From: Sphingomonas sp. SUN019
GTDB taxonomy: Bacteria; Pseudomonadota; Alphaproteobacteria; Sphingomonadales; Sphingomonadaceae
NCBI RefSeq assembly: GCF_024758705.1
Contig: NZ_CP096971.1
Coordinates: 3,501,501-3,565,500 of the forward strand
Direction of reading: 5' to 3'
DNA: 64,000 bases
The position numbers and the translations under genes are program-made. Under the pieces are notes generated by a model. That model saw only the letters and a program-made list of their open reading frames with translations. It searched no databases and had not been told where the DNA came from. This document shows, piece by piece, positions 6,261-12,563 of the stretch. Every line of letters begins with the position of its first letter. The first letter of the stretch is position 1.

Positions 6261-7490
6261 TTACGCCTTGATGACAGACGCGGCCGAAACGGCCTCTACG
6301 CCGCGAAGCGTCACGGTGACGCGTGTGCCTTGACCCAATGTGCTGGCGATATCGAAGCGACCACGGTGGCGCTCGACGATATGCTTGACGATCGCGAGCC
6401 CGAGCCCGGTGCCGCCGAGCGAGCGGCTGCGACCCGGATCGACGCGGTAGAAGCGCTCGGTCAGCCTGGGCAGATGCTCGGGTGCGATGCCGTCGCCCTC
6501 GTCCGTCACCACCAGCCGGATCGTGCGCGACGCATCGGCGGTCAGCGTCACGCGGATCGGCGTGCCCGCCTTGCCGTATTTCATCGCATTGCCGATCAGA
6601 TTGTGGAGCAATTGCGACAATTGCACCCGGTCCCCCGTCACCAGCGGGATCGTGTTCGCGACATCGACCGTCACGTCGCGCCCGCGGCCGTCGTGCGCGT
6701 CGACCAGTTCGGCTTGCACTTCGTCGATCAGTTCGGACAGGTCGACGGTCGCGTCCGGCAGGCGGAATTTCTCCGCCTCGATGCGCGACAGGCTCATCAG
6801 ATCCTCGACCAGCCGCTCCATCCGGTGCGCCTCGTCCAGCACGATCTTCAGGAACCGCGCGCGGGTTTCGGGCTCTTCCCCCGCGGCGTCGGCGAGCGTT
6901 TCGACATAGCCGAGGATCGACGACAGCGGCGTGCGCAGTTCGTGGCTGGCGTTGGCGACGAAATCGACGCGCATCCGTTCCGCCGCATAGCTGCCGGTGC
7001 GATCGATCAGGTGGACGACGCGCGTGCCGTCGGTCAGTGCCGCGACGCGCATTTCCCAGCGCTGGTCTAGCGTGCCGAGCCCGACCAGTTCGATCGGTTG
7101 CAGCACGTCCCCCACGCGCTGGTCGAGCAGATGCCCGGCCGCAGCGGGATGGCGGATCGCGGTGCGCGCATCCTCGCCGACGATATGCGCGCCGAGCAAC
7201 GTCTTCGCCGCGCTGTTGGCGAAGGCGACGCGGCTGTCGCGGACCAGCAGCACCGGCTCGACGATCGCCTCCAGTATGGCGTCGGTCGGCGTCGTCGGCT
7301 CGTCCGGCATCACGACGCGATCGTCGGGTGCGGTGCGGTCGTCGCCGCTGGTCGCGGTCAGCAATGCCGCGACTCCGCCCGCGAGCATCAGCAAGGCCGC
7401 CTGGACATCGAACAGGACGAAGACGATCCCCGCGGTGATCGCGACGATGGCGGCCCCAAGCCAGGTCCGGAACGTGATTCCCTCTAACAC
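6261..7490 (-). CDS. phoR: Phosphate regulon sensor histidine kinase PhoR
   Basis: A 409-residue membrane sensor kinase and partner of PhoB. Two adjacent membrane helices lie at about 8-26 and 29-48, then a PAS-like domain (about 70-165), a HisKA domain with phospho-His183 (NASHELRTPL), and a HATPase domain with N box NLIGNAMKYG, G1 DEGDGIAP, F box RFYRVD and G2 GGTGLGLAIVKHI. There is no large periplasmic sensor, as expected for PhoR, which reads the Pst/PhoU state. It is the first gene of the block; 62 bases separate it from pstS. Confidence 0.95.
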   Translation of the reverse strand: MLEGITFRTWLGAAIVAITAGIVFVLFDVQAALLMLAGGVAALLTATSGDDRTAPDDRVVMPDEPTTPTDAILEAIVEPVLLVRDSRVAFANSAAKTLLGAHIVGEDARTAIRHPAAAGHLLDQRVGDVLQPIELVGLGTLDQRWEMRVAALTDGTRVVHLIDRTGSYAAERMRVDFVANASHELRTPLSSILGYVETLADAAGEEPETRARFLKIVLDEAHRMERLVEDLMSLSRIEAEKFRLPDATVDLSELIDEVQAELVDAHDGRGRDVTVDVANTIPLVTGDRVQLSQLLHNLIGNAMKYGKAGTPIRVTLTADASRTIRLVVTDEGDGIAPEHLPRLTERFYRVDPGRSRSLGGTGLGLAIVKHIVERHRGRFDIASTLGQGTRVTVTLRGVEAVSAASVIKA

Positions 7491-7613
7491 GCCACCCGCT
7501 TATCTGATCGCGCGTCCCGCGTCGTGGTTAACGTCCCGCTGTGGAACGTATCCGCGCATCTCCTTGTCCGCGCGTTAGGAATATGGAAGTGCGCATCAGC
7601 GATAAGGGATGCG
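7491..7613. promoter_or_regulatory. Divergent intergenic region phoR / Tat-like protein gene
   Basis: These 123 bases must hold the promoter of the phoR-pst-phoU-phoB block on the minus strand and that of the PqqD/HprK cassette on the plus strand. I looked for paired TGTCAT-type half-sites of a Pho box and found no convincing one on either strand. A single TGTCACA half-site lies nearer pstS, on the minus strand around 6248-6255. Assignment as regulatory is by position only. Confidence 0.4.
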
Positions 7614-8015
7614 ATGAGCGACATTACCGATCCTGACCAGCCGATCCATCCTACTCGGCGCCGCGCGTTGATGCTGGGCGCGGTCGGTGCGGCGTCGATC
7701 GTGTCGATCCGTCCCGCGATGGCGCAGACGATGGGGTCGGTGCTGACGTGCGAAATCCCGGTCCCCGACCCGAGCCGCGCGGGCGGCTATATCGACAAGG
7801 ACGGCAATGTCGTCGCCGCGGGCACCAAGGGCGCATATGCCCCGCCGCCGCGACCGTTGAAGGGCGAGGATGTGCGGCGAGCGTTGTCCGGCGGCGGCAA
7901 CCTGCCCGGTATCGAATATGAACGCAGCCGTGCGTATCTGAAATACGTGTCGCGATTGCGCAGCGGGACCAGCGGCTTCACCTGCTACGCCTCGCTCCAG
8001 ATGCCGCGGAAATAA
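7614..8015 (+). CDS. Tat-like exported protein, candidate partner of the HPr-rel-A cassette
   Basis: A 133-residue protein. The ATG at 7614 (MSDITDPDQP) was chosen over an upstream in-frame start at 7524 because it places a twin-arginine signal near the N-terminus: TRRRALMLG (residues 14-22), a hydrophobic stretch to about 33, and cleavage after AMA (37). The mature part is about 96 residues with only two cysteines (C46, C124), Pro-rich in the middle (APPPRPLKG), ending GTSGFTCYASLQMPRK. I do not recognise the family. It ends 2 bases before the PqqD-like gene and is probably co-transcribed with it, so it may be the substrate or cargo of the cassette. That role is inference. Confidence 0.65.
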   Translation: MSDITDPDQPIHPTRRRALMLGAVGAASIVSIRPAMAQTMGSVLTCEIPVPDPSRAGGYIDKDGNVVAAGTKGAYAPPPRPLKGEDVRRALSGGGNLPGIEYERSRAYLKYVSRLRSGTSGFTCYASLQMPRK

Positions 8016-8017
8016 CG

Positions 8018-8281
8018 GTGCCCGCGACGCGGTGGCGCGCGCCGCCCGCGGACGGCCTGCGCATCGTGCCGCTGGACGATATCGTCGCGATTTATCACCG
8101 CGCGTCGGCGACGACGCATCTCGTCGTGTCGCCCGTTCCCGAATTGCTCGACGAACTGGCAGGCCGGTGGCGGACGGCGGACGAGATCGAGGCGGCGTTC
8201 GACCTGGTCGACGGCGGGCGCGACGCGCTGATCGCGCGACTCGACGAACTGGGGGAAGCCGGGCTAGTCGAGGCGGCATGA
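8018..8281 (+). CDS. PqqD-like protein of the HPr-rel-A system
   Basis: An 87-residue protein starting at GTG (8018), 2 bases after the previous stop. Its profile fits the PqqD/RRE winged-helix fold: a two-stranded start (LRIVPLDDIVAIYHRAS), an LVVSPVPELLDELAG helix and a C-terminal DALIARLDELGEAGLVE segment. PqqD domains bind precursor peptides and present them to modifying enzymes. NCBI/TIGRFAM models describe a PqqD-like member linked to an HprK-related kinase ('HPr-rel-A system'), which matches this context. The stop overlaps the kinase start (ATGA). Confidence 0.75.
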   Translation: MPATRWRAPPADGLRIVPLDDIVAIYHRASATTHLVVSPVPELLDELAGRWRTADEIEAAFDLVDGGRDALIARLDELGEAGLVEAA

Positions 8282-9132
8282 GGCATGACTTTGCGGTGCG
8301 GATCGGCCCCGCGGGGTTTCGCATAGGATCGGACTGGCGCGCGCCGATCGACCAATTGCGCACGCTGTACGCCGGTTATCCCGCCCCCGCCGACGGCATC
8401 GCCGACTTCACCGTCCGGCTTGAGGCGGTGCGGCCGTGGCGGCGCTTTATCCGTCCGTCGATCCGCCTGACCGGCGATCACGAACTGCCCGACGCCTTGC
8501 CGTTGCCGCTGTCGCAGGGGCTGCTCGCGGCCGAGATGGGCATGAACCTGCAGATGGCGCTGGGGCAGCGGCGCTTCCTGCTGCTCCATGCCTCGGCGGT
8601 CGAGCGCGACGGGCGCGCGATCGTGATGACGGGCGAATCGGGCGCGGGGAAATCGACGCTCGCTGCGTTGCTTCAGGCGCGCGGCTGGCGGCTGATGGGC
8701 GACGAATTCGCGTTGCTCGATCCAGTGACGGGGCTGGTCCACGCTTTTCCGCGGCTGGTGAGTCTGAAGAACGAAGCGATTGCGGTGGCGCGTGCGGCCT
8801 TGCCCGCGGCCATGTTCGGTCCGTTGATCGCGGGAACGCCGAAGGGCGACATCCGGCATCTTGTGCCCGACGCGCGCGCGATCGCGATGATGGACACGCC
8901 CGCCACCTCCGCCTTGCTGCTGTTCCCGCGCTTCGGCAGCGTTGCCGAACAGCGGCCTGTAGGGGCGGGGGAGGCGTTCGTGCGGCTGACGCAGGCGTCG
9001 ACCAACTACGTCGCGTTGGGCGAACGCGGGTTCGACGCGCTGACCCGCTTCGTCTCGACCGTGCCGATGGCGGCGATCGACTATCCCGACATGGCTTCCG
9101 CCGCGCGGATGATCGAGGATCTGGTGCGGTGA
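8278..9132 (+). CDS. HprK-related kinase A
   Basis: A 284-residue P-loop protein resembling the catalytic domain of HPr kinase/phosphorylase. Visible are LLLHASAVERDGRAIVMTG with H104, Walker A GESGAGKST (119-127), and LMGDEFALLDP (D142, E143) in the place of the HprK acidic pair. The start ATG at 8278 overlaps the PqqD-like stop; longer frames upstream would run through the PqqD gene in another frame. HprK homologues phosphorylate serine, in HPr or at the C-terminus of some lasso peptides. No HPr or other PTS gene is seen here, so the substrate is unknown; the PqqD-like protein may recruit it. The stop overlaps the next start (GTGA). Confidence 0.8.
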   Translation: MRHDFAVRIGPAGFRIGSDWRAPIDQLRTLYAGYPAPADGIADFTVRLEAVRPWRRFIRPSIRLTGDHELPDALPLPLSQGLLAAEMGMNLQMALGQRRFLLLHASAVERDGRAIVMTGESGAGKSTLAALLQARGWRLMGDEFALLDPVTGLVHAFPRLVSLKNEAIAVARAALPAAMFGPLIAGTPKGDIRHLVPDARAIAMMDTPATSALLLFPRFGSVAEQRPVGAGEAFVRLTQASTNYVALGERGFDALTRFVSTVPMAAIDYPDMASAARMIEDLVR

Positions 9133-10151
9133 GCGACGCGACCCTGCTCGTCCGCACGCTCACCGATCCGGGGACGTGCCTGACGCTCGATCCCGCCGGA
9201 TGGGCCGAGTTGCTGACGATGGCGCGCGCGGAGCAATTGATTGGCAGCCTTGCGCATCGACTGAACGGCCTGGCCGTCCCGCCGCGCGCCGCCGCGATCC
9301 TTGAGGATGCGCGCGCCGATGCCGCCGAAGGTCGTCGCCACGCCTTGTGGGAAGCGGAGATGGCGCGGCGGGCGCTGACGCCGCTCGGCTGCCCGGTCGT
9401 GCTGTTGAAGGGCACGGCGTTCGTCGCTGCGGGGCTCGACGCGGGGCAGGGGCGGTCGATCGGTGATCTCGATATCCTCGTGCCGCGTGCGTCGCTCGAT
9501 GCGGTGGAGGCGGCGCTGCTCGCGGCGGGCTGGGAGTGGGTAAAGCCCGATCCCTATGACGACGATTACTATCGCCGCTGGATGCACGAACTGCCGCCGC
9601 TGATCCACCGCGAGCGCGACTGGATGATCGACGTCCACCATACGATCCTTCCCCCCACGGCCCGGATCACGCCCGACCCCGCGAAGCTGCTGGCGGCAGC
9701 CGAACCGCTGGAGGGCGGGCTTTCGATCCTGTCGCAGGAGGATATGGTCGTCCACGCGGCGATCCATCTGTTCGCGGACGGCGACCTGTCGGGGGGGCTG
9801 CGCAACCTGTGGGATATCGACCGGCTGCTGCGCGAGTTCTCGGACCGCGACGACTCCTTCTGGCTGAAACTCGCCGCGCGCGCCGCGGAGCATGAGGCGG
9901 GCGCGGTCGTGGCGCGGGCGGCGCGGCAGGCGAACGATCTGTACGGCACGCCGATCCCCGACGACTGGCGCCAGCGCGACGCGCTCGATCCGCTGATCCG
10001 GCGGCGGTTGCTGGCGCGCGACGGCTGGGGACGCGCGATCTGGCCGGTCACGCGATTGGGCTTCTACGTCCGCTCGCATTGGATGCGGATGCCGCCCGCG
10101 ATGCTGGCGCGGCATCTGTGGATCAAGGCGCGACGGCGCGACGGCTCCTGA
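9129..10151 (+). CDS. Nucleotidyltransferase family protein (NTP_transf_5-like)
   Basis: A 340-residue protein starting at GTG 9129, overlapping the kinase stop. The polymerase-beta-type nucleotidyltransferase signature is at residues 108-120, GRSIGDLDILVPR, with the catalytic pair D113/D115 and a preceding LLKGTAF loop. A later acidic/His stretch, ERDWMIDVHHTI, would supply the third carboxylate. Proteins of this type accompany HprK-like kinases in lasso-peptide and HPr-rel-A loci, where they may attach a nucleotide or extend phosphate groups. Membership of this system is from gene order; the reaction is not known. Confidence 0.78.
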   Translation: MSDATLLVRTLTDPGTCLTLDPAGWAELLTMARAEQLIGSLAHRLNGLAVPPRAAAILEDARADAAEGRRHALWEAEMARRALTPLGCPVVLLKGTAFVAAGLDAGQGRSIGDLDILVPRASLDAVEAALLAAGWEWVKPDPYDDDYYRRWMHELPPLIHRERDWMIDVHHTILPPTARITPDPAKLLAAAEPLEGGLSILSQEDMVVHAAIHLFADGDLSGGLRNLWDIDRLLREFSDRDDSFWLKLAARAAEHEAGAVVARAARQANDLYGTPIPDDWRQRDALDPLIRRRLLARDGWGRAIWPVTRLGFYVRSHWMRMPPAMLARHLWIKARRRDGS

Positions 10152-10479
10152 CGAGAGCGATCACCACCAGCACCGCGACGATCATCGACGTGTCCGCGAC
10201 CCAATCCAGTATGTCGCAATCGCGGTGTAGCGCAGGGATGGACTGCGCCACCTCGATCATCGCGCCCAGAAACGACAGCCGCTCGCCGATCCGATACAGC
10301 CGCGCCATCGGATAGGCGAGCGCGGACAGCACCGTCAGCACGCCGAATGCCGCCATGTGCTGGGTCTTGTCGCTGGCCGGGACCATCGGCGGGGTCGGCA
10401 GCAGCGCCATCACAATCGCGACGGTGATCGCCACGGCCAGCAGCAAGCGCCAGAAGGTCAGGTGTTCGCGCGCGGTCAT
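10123..10479 (-). CDS. VanZ-like small membrane protein
   Basis: A 118-residue protein with about four hydrophobic segments (LLLAVAITVAIVMALLP, FGVLTVLSALAYPM, LGAMIEVAQSI region, MIVAVLVVIALV). The DKTQHMAAFGVLTVL and DWVADT motifs are typical of VanZ-like proteins. The ATG at 10477-10479 overlaps the phosphatase stop (ATGA), so the two are coupled. Its 3' end overlaps the convergent nucleotidyltransferase gene by 29 bases. The biochemical role of such small VanZ-like proteins is unknown. Confidence 0.75.
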   Translation of the reverse strand: MTAREHLTFWRLLLAVAITVAIVMALLPTPPMVPASDKTQHMAAFGVLTVLSALAYPMARLYRIGERLSFLGAMIEVAQSIPALHRDCDILDWVADTSMIVAVLVVIALVRSRRAVAP

Positions 10480-11144
10480 ATGCGGTTCAGCACGGGTAGC
10501 AGTTCGTCGAAGTGATCGATGATCGCGTCCGCACCCAACTCCGCGACCGGACCCGTCACGAAGCCGAAGCTGCACGCGATCGCCGGCAGTCCCGCCGCGT
10601 GCGCCGCCGTGACGTCATAGATCGAATCGCCGACGAACACCGCACGTCCCCCGCCGCATCGCGCGACCATCGCCTCGATCAGGTCGGGTGCGGGCTTGCC
10701 TCTGCCCGGGCCGAGCGCATCGCCGCCTAAGATGCAGTCGAAGCGGTCGATCAGTCCGACCGCGCGCAATACCGACAGCGCGAAGGCTTCCTTCTTGTTC
10801 GTCACGACCGCCAGTTTTGGCCCCAATTCGGCCAGCGCATCCAGCGCTGCGATCACGCCAGGGTATGGCGCGGTGTGGACACAGATGTTCGCCTCATAGT
10901 AGCCGAGCAGCAGGTCGTGCAGCCGGTCGAGCTCCGCCTCGTCGCATCCGCCCGTCGCCGCCAATCCCTGCGCCAGCATATGCCGCGCGCCGCCGCCGAT
11001 CATCGGCTTCACCTGTTCGACGGTCAGCGGCGTGCGACCGATCGAGGCCAACGCATGGTTCACCGCCGCGGCGAGATCGCCGCTGGTGTCGAGCAATGTC
11101 CCGTCGAGATCGAACCCGACGATATCGAAGCGAAAGCTGGTCAT
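10476..11144 (-). CDS. gph: Phosphoglycolate phosphatase (HAD family)
   Basis: A 222-residue HAD hydrolase that would dephosphorylate 2-phosphoglycolate. Motif I is VGFDLDGTLLDTSGD (nucleophile Asp plus the +2 Asp), motif II AVVTNK, the lysine is in GRGKPAPD, and motif III is VFVGDSIYDV. A longer frame reaches 11456, but the ATG at 11142-11144 (MTSFRFDIVGFDLDG) places motif I where the family has it. It diverges from glmU with 60 bases between them. Confidence 0.9.
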   Translation of the reverse strand: MTSFRFDIVGFDLDGTLLDTSGDLAAAVNHALASIGRTPLTVEQVKPMIGGGARHMLAQGLAATGGCDEAELDRLHDLLLGYYEANICVHTAPYPGVIAALDALAELGPKLAVVTNKKEAFALSVLRAVGLIDRFDCILGGDALGPGRGKPAPDLIEAMVARCGGGRAVFVGDSIYDVTAAHAAGLPAIACSFGFVTGPVAELGADAIIDHFDELLPVLNRI

Positions 11145-11204
11145 CGTTGCGCGCGGTGACGCGTTGCTATGGAAATGGCAAGTTTCCGGTGGCAGGGCGT
11201 GGCG

Positions 11205-12563
11205 ATGACCAATCGCCCGCTTGCCGCGATCGTCCTTGCCGCCGGCAAGGGCACACGCATGAAATCCGATTTGCACAAGGTGCTGCATCCGATCGCGGGA
11301 CGGCCCATGCTGCTGCACCTGCTCGCCAGCGTGGAGGCGCTGTCGCCCGCGTGCACCGTGGTGGTGGTGGGGGCCGGGCGCGAACAGGTCGAATCGGCGG
11401 TCGCACCGCTGGGTGTCGCGGTCGCGCATCAGACCGAGCAACTCGGCACCGGTCATGCGGTGCTACAGGCGGAGCGTGCACTGGACGGCTTCACCGGCGA
11501 CGTGCTGATCCTGTATGGCGATGTCCCGCTGGTCGGGGTGGAGACGATGCGGCGGATGACCGAGCGGCTGCACGCCGATGATGCGCCGGCGGCGGTGGTG
11601 CTCGGCTTTTGTCCCGATGATCCGGGGGCGTATGGGCGGGTGATCGCGGACGCTGACGGCCGGATCGCACGGATGGTCGAGTATAAGGACGCCTCGCCTG
11701 AGGAGCGTGGCGTAACGCTATGTAATTCGGGACTGATGGCGGTGCGCAGCGACGATCTGTTCGCGCTGCTGGCCCGTGTCGGCAACGACAATGCGGCGGC
11801 CGAATATTACCTGCCCGACGTCGTGATGCTGGCCGCCGCCGATGGGCGCGGGTCCGCGGTGATAGAAACAGAAACGGACGAGGTCGCAGGCGTCAACAGT
11901 CGCGGGGAATTGGCGACGGTCGAACTCGGCTGGCAGCAGCGGCGGCGCGCGCAGGCGATGATCGATGGCGTGACGCTGACCGCGCCGGATACGGTGTGGT
12001 TCGCCTATGATACGGCGCTGGGGCGCGATGTTAGGATCGAGCCGAACGTCGTGTTCGGCCCCGGCGTGACCGTGGCGGATCGCGCGGTGATCCATGCGTT
12101 CAGCCATCTCGAAGGCGCGACCGTCGGCGAAGGCGCGTCGGTCGGCCCGTATGCCCGGCTGCGGCCCGGCGCGGTGCTCGGCAAGAACTCGCGCGTCGGC
12201 AATTTCGTCGAGGTGAAGAAGACGGTGCTGGGCGAGGGCGCGAAGGCGAACCATCTGACGTACCTCGGCGATGCTGATGTGGGGGCGGGCGCGAACATCG
12301 GGGCGGGGACGATCACCTGCAATTATGACGGTTTTTTCAAATATCGTACTGCGATCGGTGCGGGGGCGTTCATCGGATCGAATTCGGCGCTGGTCGCGCC
12401 GGTCACGATCGGCGATGGCGCGATCGTGGCGGCAGGATCGGTGGTAACTGCGGATGTCGAGGCCGACGCGCTGGCGCTGGTCCGACCGCCACAGACTGCC
12501 AAGCCCAACTGGGCAAAACGTTTTCGGGAAATGATGAGCGCGCGCAAGAAGGAAGCCCGCTAA
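11205..12563 (+). CDS. glmU: Bifunctional N-acetylglucosamine-1-P uridyltransferase / GlcN-1-P acetyltransferase GlmU
   Basis: A 452-residue cytosolic enzyme making UDP-GlcNAc for peptidoglycan and lipid A. The N-terminal pyrophosphorylase domain begins AAIVLAAGKGTRMKSDLHK and contains LYGDVPL. The C-terminal left-handed beta-helix (about 250-440) carries the acetyltransferase active site with LTYLGDADVG and ITCNYDG. The start at 11205 (MTNRPLAAIVLAAG) fits the family; an upstream in-frame ATG at 11169 would add 12 residues. The stop is directly followed by the glmS ATG, so the two act as an operon. Confidence 0.97.
   Translation: MTNRPLAAIVLAAGKGTRMKSDLHKVLHPIAGRPMLLHLLASVEALSPACTVVVVGAGREQVESAVAPLGVAVAHQTEQLGTGHAVLQAERALDGFTGDVLILYGDVPLVGVETMRRMTERLHADDAPAAVVLGFCPDDPGAYGRVIADADGRIARMVEYKDASPEERGVTLCNSGLMAVRSDDLFALLARVGNDNAAAEYYLPDVVMLAAADGRGSAVIETETDEVAGVNSRGELATVELGWQQRRRAQAMIDGVTLTAPDTVWFAYDTALGRDVRIEPNVVFGPGVTVADRAVIHAFSHLEGATVGEGASVGPYARLRPGAVLGKNSRVGNFVEVKKTVLGEGAKANHLTYLGDADVGAGANIGAGTITCNYDGFFKYRTAIGAGAFIGSNSALVAPVTIGDGAIVAAGSVVTADVEADALALVRPPQTAKPNWAKRFREMMSARKKEAR

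Follow-up and report, generated by a model that had tools for sequence, protein, structure and literature searches.

The window analysed here is a 64,000-nt stretch of the genome of Sphingomonas sp. SUN019 (Sphingomonadaceae, hereafter "the family"; NZ_CP096971.1:3,501,501-3,565,500). At positions 7614-10151 it carries a cassette of four forward-strand genes encoding, in order, a protein with a twin-arginine translocation (Tat) signal, a PqqD-like protein resembling the recognition elements (RREs) of ribosomally synthesized and post-translationally modified peptides (RiPPs), an HprK-related kinase, and a nucleotidyltransferase (Table 1). Successive genes are separated by 2, −4, and −4 bases, and these coordinates bear out an earlier, sequence-only reading of the four genes as one translational unit.

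Table 1. Genes and candidate sites of the cassette (positions in the window)
Feature	Position	Strand	Details
Tat-signal precursor protein, proposed substrate	7614..8015	+	ATG start, 133 amino acids (aa)
Leader motif S31-I-R-P34, proposed PqqD grip	7704..7715	+	In signal peptide
Ser42, first candidate phospho-acceptor	7737..7739	+	11 residues after S31; five after predicted cleavage site
T123-C-Y-A-S127, rival candidate acceptor	7980..7994	+	C-terminal
PqqD-like (RRE) protein	8018..8281	+	GTG start, 87 aa; TIGR04353
HprK-related kinase A	8278..9132	+	ATG start, 284 aa; TIGR04352
NTP_transf_5-type nucleotidyltransferase	9129..10151	+	GTG start, 340 aa; PF14907

Two of the three trailing genes belong to the HPr-rel-A system: the kinase exceeds the cut-off of NCBIfam TIGR04352 (245.3 bits, cut-off 200), and the PqqD-like protein, which has no Pfam match, narrowly passes that of TIGR04353 (36.2 bits, cut-off 35). 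The transferase scores 178.6 bits against Pfam PF14907 (cut-off 31.2), and the kinase stays far under the full HPr kinase/phosphorylase model TIGR00679 (22.3 bits, cut-off 240). Sequence searches of the PDB returned weak HprK matches for the kinase (best E, 2e-4) and nothing for the transferase. The sequence-only reading had named the same trio and described both enzymes as intact, and both points hold: the trio is known as a family set, uncharacterized, and the catalytic residues are conserved rather than lost in relatives. Kinase residues H104, K125, D142, E143, K189, and N243 are kept in 102/102 aligned sequences, and the Asp pair of the transferase, D113 and D115, in 97/97, with D168 in 96 (window's sequence included in each case); the PqqD-like protein keeps T33 in 89/90 and H34 in 87/90. 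One draft genome, with 8% contamination listed, encodes kinase and transferase as a fusion in a single open frame of 706 aa (L122:7944-10064).

At E ≤ 1 the product of the first gene has no match in NCBIfam or Pfam, and among the homologues listed the nearest named ones are from Sphingomonas. It has T-R-R-R at residues 14-17, a hydrophobic stretch, and A-M-A, with cleavage predicted after A37; since the 3.8-Mb genome also encodes tatC, export through Tat is predicted, in keeping with the twin-arginine signal first noticed by eye. Across the query and the best 119 of its 2,558 matches (n = 120), the signal residues R16, R17, A35, and A37 are invariant, as are I32, R33, and P34 of the leader motif (whose S31 column is [ST] in 60/61 parsed family leaders), Ser42, and T123, C124, and S127 within a G-F-T-C..S.Q C-terminus that is itself present in 120/120. 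Cys46 and Cys124 are also kept throughout and may join the N-terminal and C-terminal candidate sites.

Co-occurrence and distribution

We surveyed 199 family genomes, calling the kinase by the TIGR04352 cut-off and the Tat gene by a profile of 32 relatives. Kinase and Tat gene are each found in 64 genomes, of which 63 are shared (hypergeometric P, about 7e-50, uncorrected for relatedness). In the remaining kinase genome (G094) an iterated profile detects a diverged Tat gene, upstream on the same strand, and the one match among the 135 kinase-less genomes (G112; E = 9.8e-4) is doubtful. Six of the 63 matches are weak (G005, G036, G080, G143, G152, and G190, with E values of 1e-8 to 2e-5; G152 lies just below), and the iterated profile recovers the Tat gene at its place in each of them. 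The Tat gene lies upstream of the kinase in the same orientation, no more than 1.62 kb away, in 60 of the 64 kinase genomes, so the exported gene is present beside most trios; in G036 the operon is split, with the Tat and PqqD genes on one contig and the kinase and transferase on another. The suggestion that the Tat-like gene is a dedicated partner of the trio is thereby upheld, with a homologue in all 64 kinase genomes of the family, and the exported protein is most likely the substrate, judging from this distribution. In one locus (L026:7218-7633; genome G192) the Tat gene is split between two frames, which could be real or an assembly error.

The association extends beyond the family. In a phylum-wide sample of 397 genomes, 51 have a kinase that exceeds the cut-off; 38 of these genomes, with 39 loci, lie outside the family. 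A Tat-signal open reading frame (ORF), often with an unrelated mature part, precedes the kinase in 36 of the 39 loci, as judged by test, profile, or eye; the exceptions are L120, L144, and L095. A further set, the best 80 of 165 relatives from named genomes (mainly Beta- and Gammaproteobacteria), has the transferase in 80/80 loci, PqqD by profile in 74/80, and a Tat-signal ORF in 73/80, two of which (L149 and L179) were counted by profile, without a parsed twin Arg. Among the seven misses, three (L189, L190, and L201) have fewer than 800 bases upstream, and in the other four (L163, L171, L181, and L218) upstream sequence is present and the Tat-signal gene was not found in it. A strict Tat test was passed by 58/64 family picks and 51/108 nonfamily picks, against a background of 80/3,542 ORFs of 85 aa or more away from the cassette; nonfamily picks failing it were accepted by a looser test (whose background rate is unmeasured), by profile, or by eye. 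Two false picks (L163 and L181) were excluded from the substrates, and one gene missed by the picker (L113) was found by profile. Two tandem paralogous Tat-signal genes precede a single kinase in one locus (L212:5868-6599 and 7250-7798). The L120 stretch (7989-11251) holds a lone kinase beside a TIGR03087 glycosyltransferase and the FemAB protein of the XrtA/PEP-CTERM system; PqqD, transferase, and Tat genes were not found there.

Within the family the cassette mostly occupies a fixed genomic place, given that a phoR-like ORF lies upstream in 56, and a glmU-like ORF downstream in 53, of 64 loci (63 plus the window). In the window itself, with names read from domains, divergent upstream genes encode a PhoR-like kinase and phosphate-transporter-like proteins, and a HAD hydrolase and GlmU- and GlmS-like genes follow downstream; two of the ten neighbors scanned have no family match. 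Pho boxes upstream of the gene were considered and set aside as not convincing (mean best score, 9.3 versus 8.7 for shuffled sequence, over 60 loci). A convergent 150-aa ORF after the cassette (10123-10575, reverse strand) has no Pfam match at 1e-5 and appears by eye to encode a small membrane protein.

Substrate classes and leader spacing

The substrates fall into classes by motif; because the patterns were written after viewing the sequences, their counts are descriptive. Class I ends in [ST]C[WFYLI]xS[FLIVM], and class Ib lacks the full motif. The class I motif occurs in 63/64 family proteins, the miss being the broken frame of L026, and in 23/108 nonfamily substrates, where shuffling predicts 0.05. 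Class Ib comprises nine nonfamily substrates, one of which (L141) probably belongs by chance and was left out of the leader-spacing counts. The remaining 76 include class II: C-x(1,3)-S-[GA] near the mature start is present in 49 (3.4 expected by shuffling), [ST]Px(1,2)[YFW] in 53 (15.7 expected), and neither in 13. Among the best 120 of 247 homologues of a class II protein, C52, S56, and S60 are invariant, and the leader residues T40 and S43 are kept in 117 and 116. Three proteins labelled class II (L192, L194, and L197) have Ser-rich tails without Cys and may represent class Ib or a further C-terminal Ser form. A FastTree phylogeny of 127 kinases, to which the family contributed 13 of its 64, has 122 tips with a class label and 4 changes of label among them; substrate type thus tracks the kinase, as expected from coevolution or from plain common descent.

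Of 174 substrates, 15 were dropped for want of a parsed leader, and the pattern [ST][LIV]x[SP]...[AVG]x[AG], which supersedes a looser one (99/159), is found in 120 of the 159 parsed. It is found in 0/10 and 0/24 control leaders, both small sets, with several of the 24 clearly not real Tat frames. Cross-class identity is 0.358 in leaders (0.225 shuffled) and 0.222 in mature parts (0.221 shuffled); in the comparison with control leaders the leader value is 0.367, above controls against class II (0.300-0.309). Counted from the leader [ST], a Ser stands at +11 in 80/91 proteins (53/60 family, 20/23 class I, and 7/8 class Ib), neighboring offsets having fewer Ser, and in 30/40 after thinning to below 35% identity. 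The A-x-A end moves from +6 in 51/60 family leaders to +8 in 22/31 class I/Ib leaders outside the family while the Ser holds +11, which suggests that the leader, and not the cleavage site, sets the reference point for its position. Outside the family, all 31 class I/Ib leaders also have a Pro at −4 from the [ST], and the 27 that combine it with the +11 Ser have a Pro-to-Ser distance of 15; among family leaders with neither gap nor Pro, the +11 Ser is present in 52/52.

A proposed tailoring line and its rivals

We consider it likely that the cassette works in the cytoplasm as a tailoring line for a single exported protein dedicated to it. The four-gene set, the conserved catalytic residues, the recurrent leader motif, and the conserved candidate residues are read directly from the sequences, and from them we infer binding, phosphorylation, capping, and the order of events. 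The PqqD-like RRE would grip the hydrophobic part of the Tat signal and so present the precursor to the HprK-like kinase, which would phosphorylate a Ser, of the candidates most likely Ser42 (with Ser127 or Thr123 as rivals). The NTP_transf_5 enzyme could then add a group to the phosphate, either a hexose, by analogy with the lasso peptide pseudomycoidin, or a nucleotide, and the modified protein would leave through Tat and lose its signal outside. The transferase step is the least certain, because LppN, the NTP transferase of the linear polyphosphorylated peptide (LPP) system of Bacillota (compared below), was inactive in the test host used, according to the text available (PMC13381572). The kinase-transferase fusion, the split operon of G036, and the tandem substrate genes of L212 count in favor of this line.

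Several observations weigh against it, the inactivity of LppN among them. Overall leader identity between classes (0.367) about equals that of unrelated Tat signals (0.356 in their own genome, 0.345 in relatives); we therefore rejected it as proof of a leader code and confine the argument to the position-specific motif and the spacing. The canonical RRE motif is without its [Y/W] here, and the −4 Pro is absent from the window's leader and from 52/60 family leaders. Where family leaders do have the Pro, the +11 Ser is present in 1/8 (four of the remainder have glycine-rich inserts), and in class II it is present in 4/57 overall and in 3/25 with Pro. One register shared by LPP and all substrates is ruled out by these counts, fitting as it does 27/31 class I/Ib proteins outside the family, 1/8 family proteins with Pro, and 3/25 class II proteins with Pro. 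That failure slightly raises the two main rivals and lowers our confidence in the tailoring line, in the dual-role conjecture given below, and in Ser42, which we nonetheless take as the first candidate acceptor, tentatively and at somewhat short of even confidence. Furthermore, the C-terminal motif is as well conserved as Ser42, the Tat gene is distant from the trio in two family genomes (G038 and G116), and among 38 phylum loci with wide flanks the transferase is found in 33 and PqqD, by profile, in 26; in some of the loci without a profile match, such as L137, a PqqD-sized ORF occupies PqqD's place.

The same system might instead modify the C-terminal motif, at Ser127 or Thr123, much as the C-terminal Ser of paeninodin-type lasso peptides undergoes phosphorylation in the account available (PMC8498205). 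We regard this as a lesser though substantial possibility. The invariance of T123, C124, and S127 argues for it, as do the hydroxyl residue at position 123 (of the 63 family proteins bearing the motif, 58 have Thr there and 5 have Ser), the recurrence of the motif in nonfamily substrates far above the shuffled expectation, and the Nitrosomonas-type proteins, which have lost the C-terminal Cys and retained the Ser. The motif Ser is, however, mostly not the last residue, with a median of six residues after it (range, 1-14); the motif is missing from class II proteins, whose kinases nevertheless belong to the same family; and the LPP site, in the part of the paper available, lies at the N-terminus of the core (PMC13381572). 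When the C-terminus was first singled out as the region to be modified, its conservation was rightly anticipated, whereas as the modified site it is a rival candidate, the LPP comparison pointing to Ser42 as much or more.

It is unlikely that the trio modifies a polysaccharide, a lipid, or another protein, with the Tat protein serving as periplasmic partner of the product. Exosortase or exopolysaccharide genes do adjoin some loci, the class II locus L109 having PrsT as a neighbor and the L120 kinase standing in the company described above, and an exosortase is present in 63/64 kinase genomes versus 107/135 others (nine genomes being counted by inference as lacking one). With 170/199 family genomes having an exosortase, the figure of 63/64 says little, and we set this link aside. 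Furthermore, the Tat gene comes first and adjoins PqqD in most loci, and the window's cassette is flanked by phosphate-transport-like and GlmU/GlmS-like genes. An RRE, as known from PqqD and the lasso peptide systems, implies a peptide substrate. The one exosortase of the window's genome is about 90 kb from the cassette; in two loci (L012 and L014, genomes G048 and G052) an exosortase match shares a contig with the kinase, at a distance of about 13 kb. Most improbable is an HPr-type regulatory kinase acting on the phosphotransferase system, its neighbors placed by chance or loosely related: the kinase is homologous to HprK, but the gene set is conserved over 64 family, 36 phylum, and 73 named loci, and the window's genome has a separate weak HprK-like match (C1:233113-233310; 31.3 bits), the cassette kinase alone exceeding the TIGR04352 cut-off there.

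Extending the proposed tailoring line, we offer, as a conjecture that could well prove wrong, that the Tat signal is also a RiPP leader: the RRE would bind its hydrophobic core, set the kinase on a Ser at a measured distance, and shield the signal for as long as modification lasts, which would make it a Tat proofreading chaperone. The four-gene system would then export several unrelated kinds of protein in phosphorylated or phosphoglycosylated form across Alpha-, Beta-, and Gammaproteobacteria. If the proposed tailoring is right, bacteria export proteins with a phosphate or phosphosugar attached before Tat transport, and peptide-tailoring RREs serve whole exported proteins as well as small natural products. 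An uncharacterized and widespread enzyme trio gains a concrete substrate candidate and a short list of residues.

Comparison with known systems

The model descriptions of the HPr-rel-A system (TIGR04352 and TIGR04353) name no substrate, and the Tat-signal partner is an addition made here. In the open-access library searched, we found no paper on HPr-rel-A, HprK-related kinase A, TIGR04352, or TIGR04353, none pairing any two of HprK, PqqD, and exosortase, and none pairing any two of NTP_transf_5, PF14907, and HprK. "HprK-related kinase" is absent among the matches listed for the PqqD/HprK-related kinase literature, and no such system is named in the titles and abstract openings of the matches listed for twin-arginine, RiPP, and RRE. 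The available part of an RRE survey names PqqD, with no HPr, Tat, or kinase (PMC12710340). The sequence-only reading had held that neither biochemistry nor substrate was known, which stands for this family in that none was found, and does not stand for a related trio acting on linear peptides, characterized in 2026 (PMC13381572, as far as available).

We know of no redox enzyme maturation protein (REMP) with a PqqD/RRE fold. REMP chaperones, in the text available, bind the Tat signals of redox preproteins before transport (PMC3316669), and the role proposed for the PqqD-like protein resembles theirs in that it would bind a Tat signal ahead of transport. Phosphorylated lasso peptides offer a likeness in their Ser kinase and, in pseudomycoidin, in a nucleotidyltransferase acting on that phosphate, to which it adds one or two hexoses, per the account available (PMC8498205). 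They differ in that the substrate here is a 133-aa protein, not a short peptide, and in that no macrolactam cyclase or leader protease is found among the four genes and ten neighbors scanned, an absence already remarked on from the sequence.

The closest characterized system is LPP (LppA/K/B/S/D/N), said to be restricted to Bacillota, in which LppB is the RRE, LppK the HprK-like kinase, and LppN the NTP transferase, alongside a peptidase and an exporter (PMC13381572); the main text available for that paper has no mention of Tat, twin, Proteobacteria, or Pseudomonadota. LPP clusters, as described there, have their own SpI-like peptidase and MsbA-like exporter, whereas none was seen here among the ten scanned neighbors; the leader here is a Tat signal, and the LPP leader YxxPxVLxHQxIxFETxxS is not recognizable, there being by eye no Y/W and, in the window, no corresponding Pro. 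The likenesses, so far as that account extends, are linked and discrete RRE, HprK-like kinase, and NTP transferase genes without a macrolactam cyclase, a conserved leader ahead of a variable core, one to three precursors per cluster, and a frequent setting in polysaccharide loci. LppB grips leader residues P-13 and V-11, and the kinase phosphorylates core Ser3, the proven site, 15 residues after P-13 (PMC13381572). The same distance separates Pro and Ser in 27/31 class I/Ib substrates outside the family, to which we restrict the comparison because Pro and +11 Ser hardly coincide inside it.

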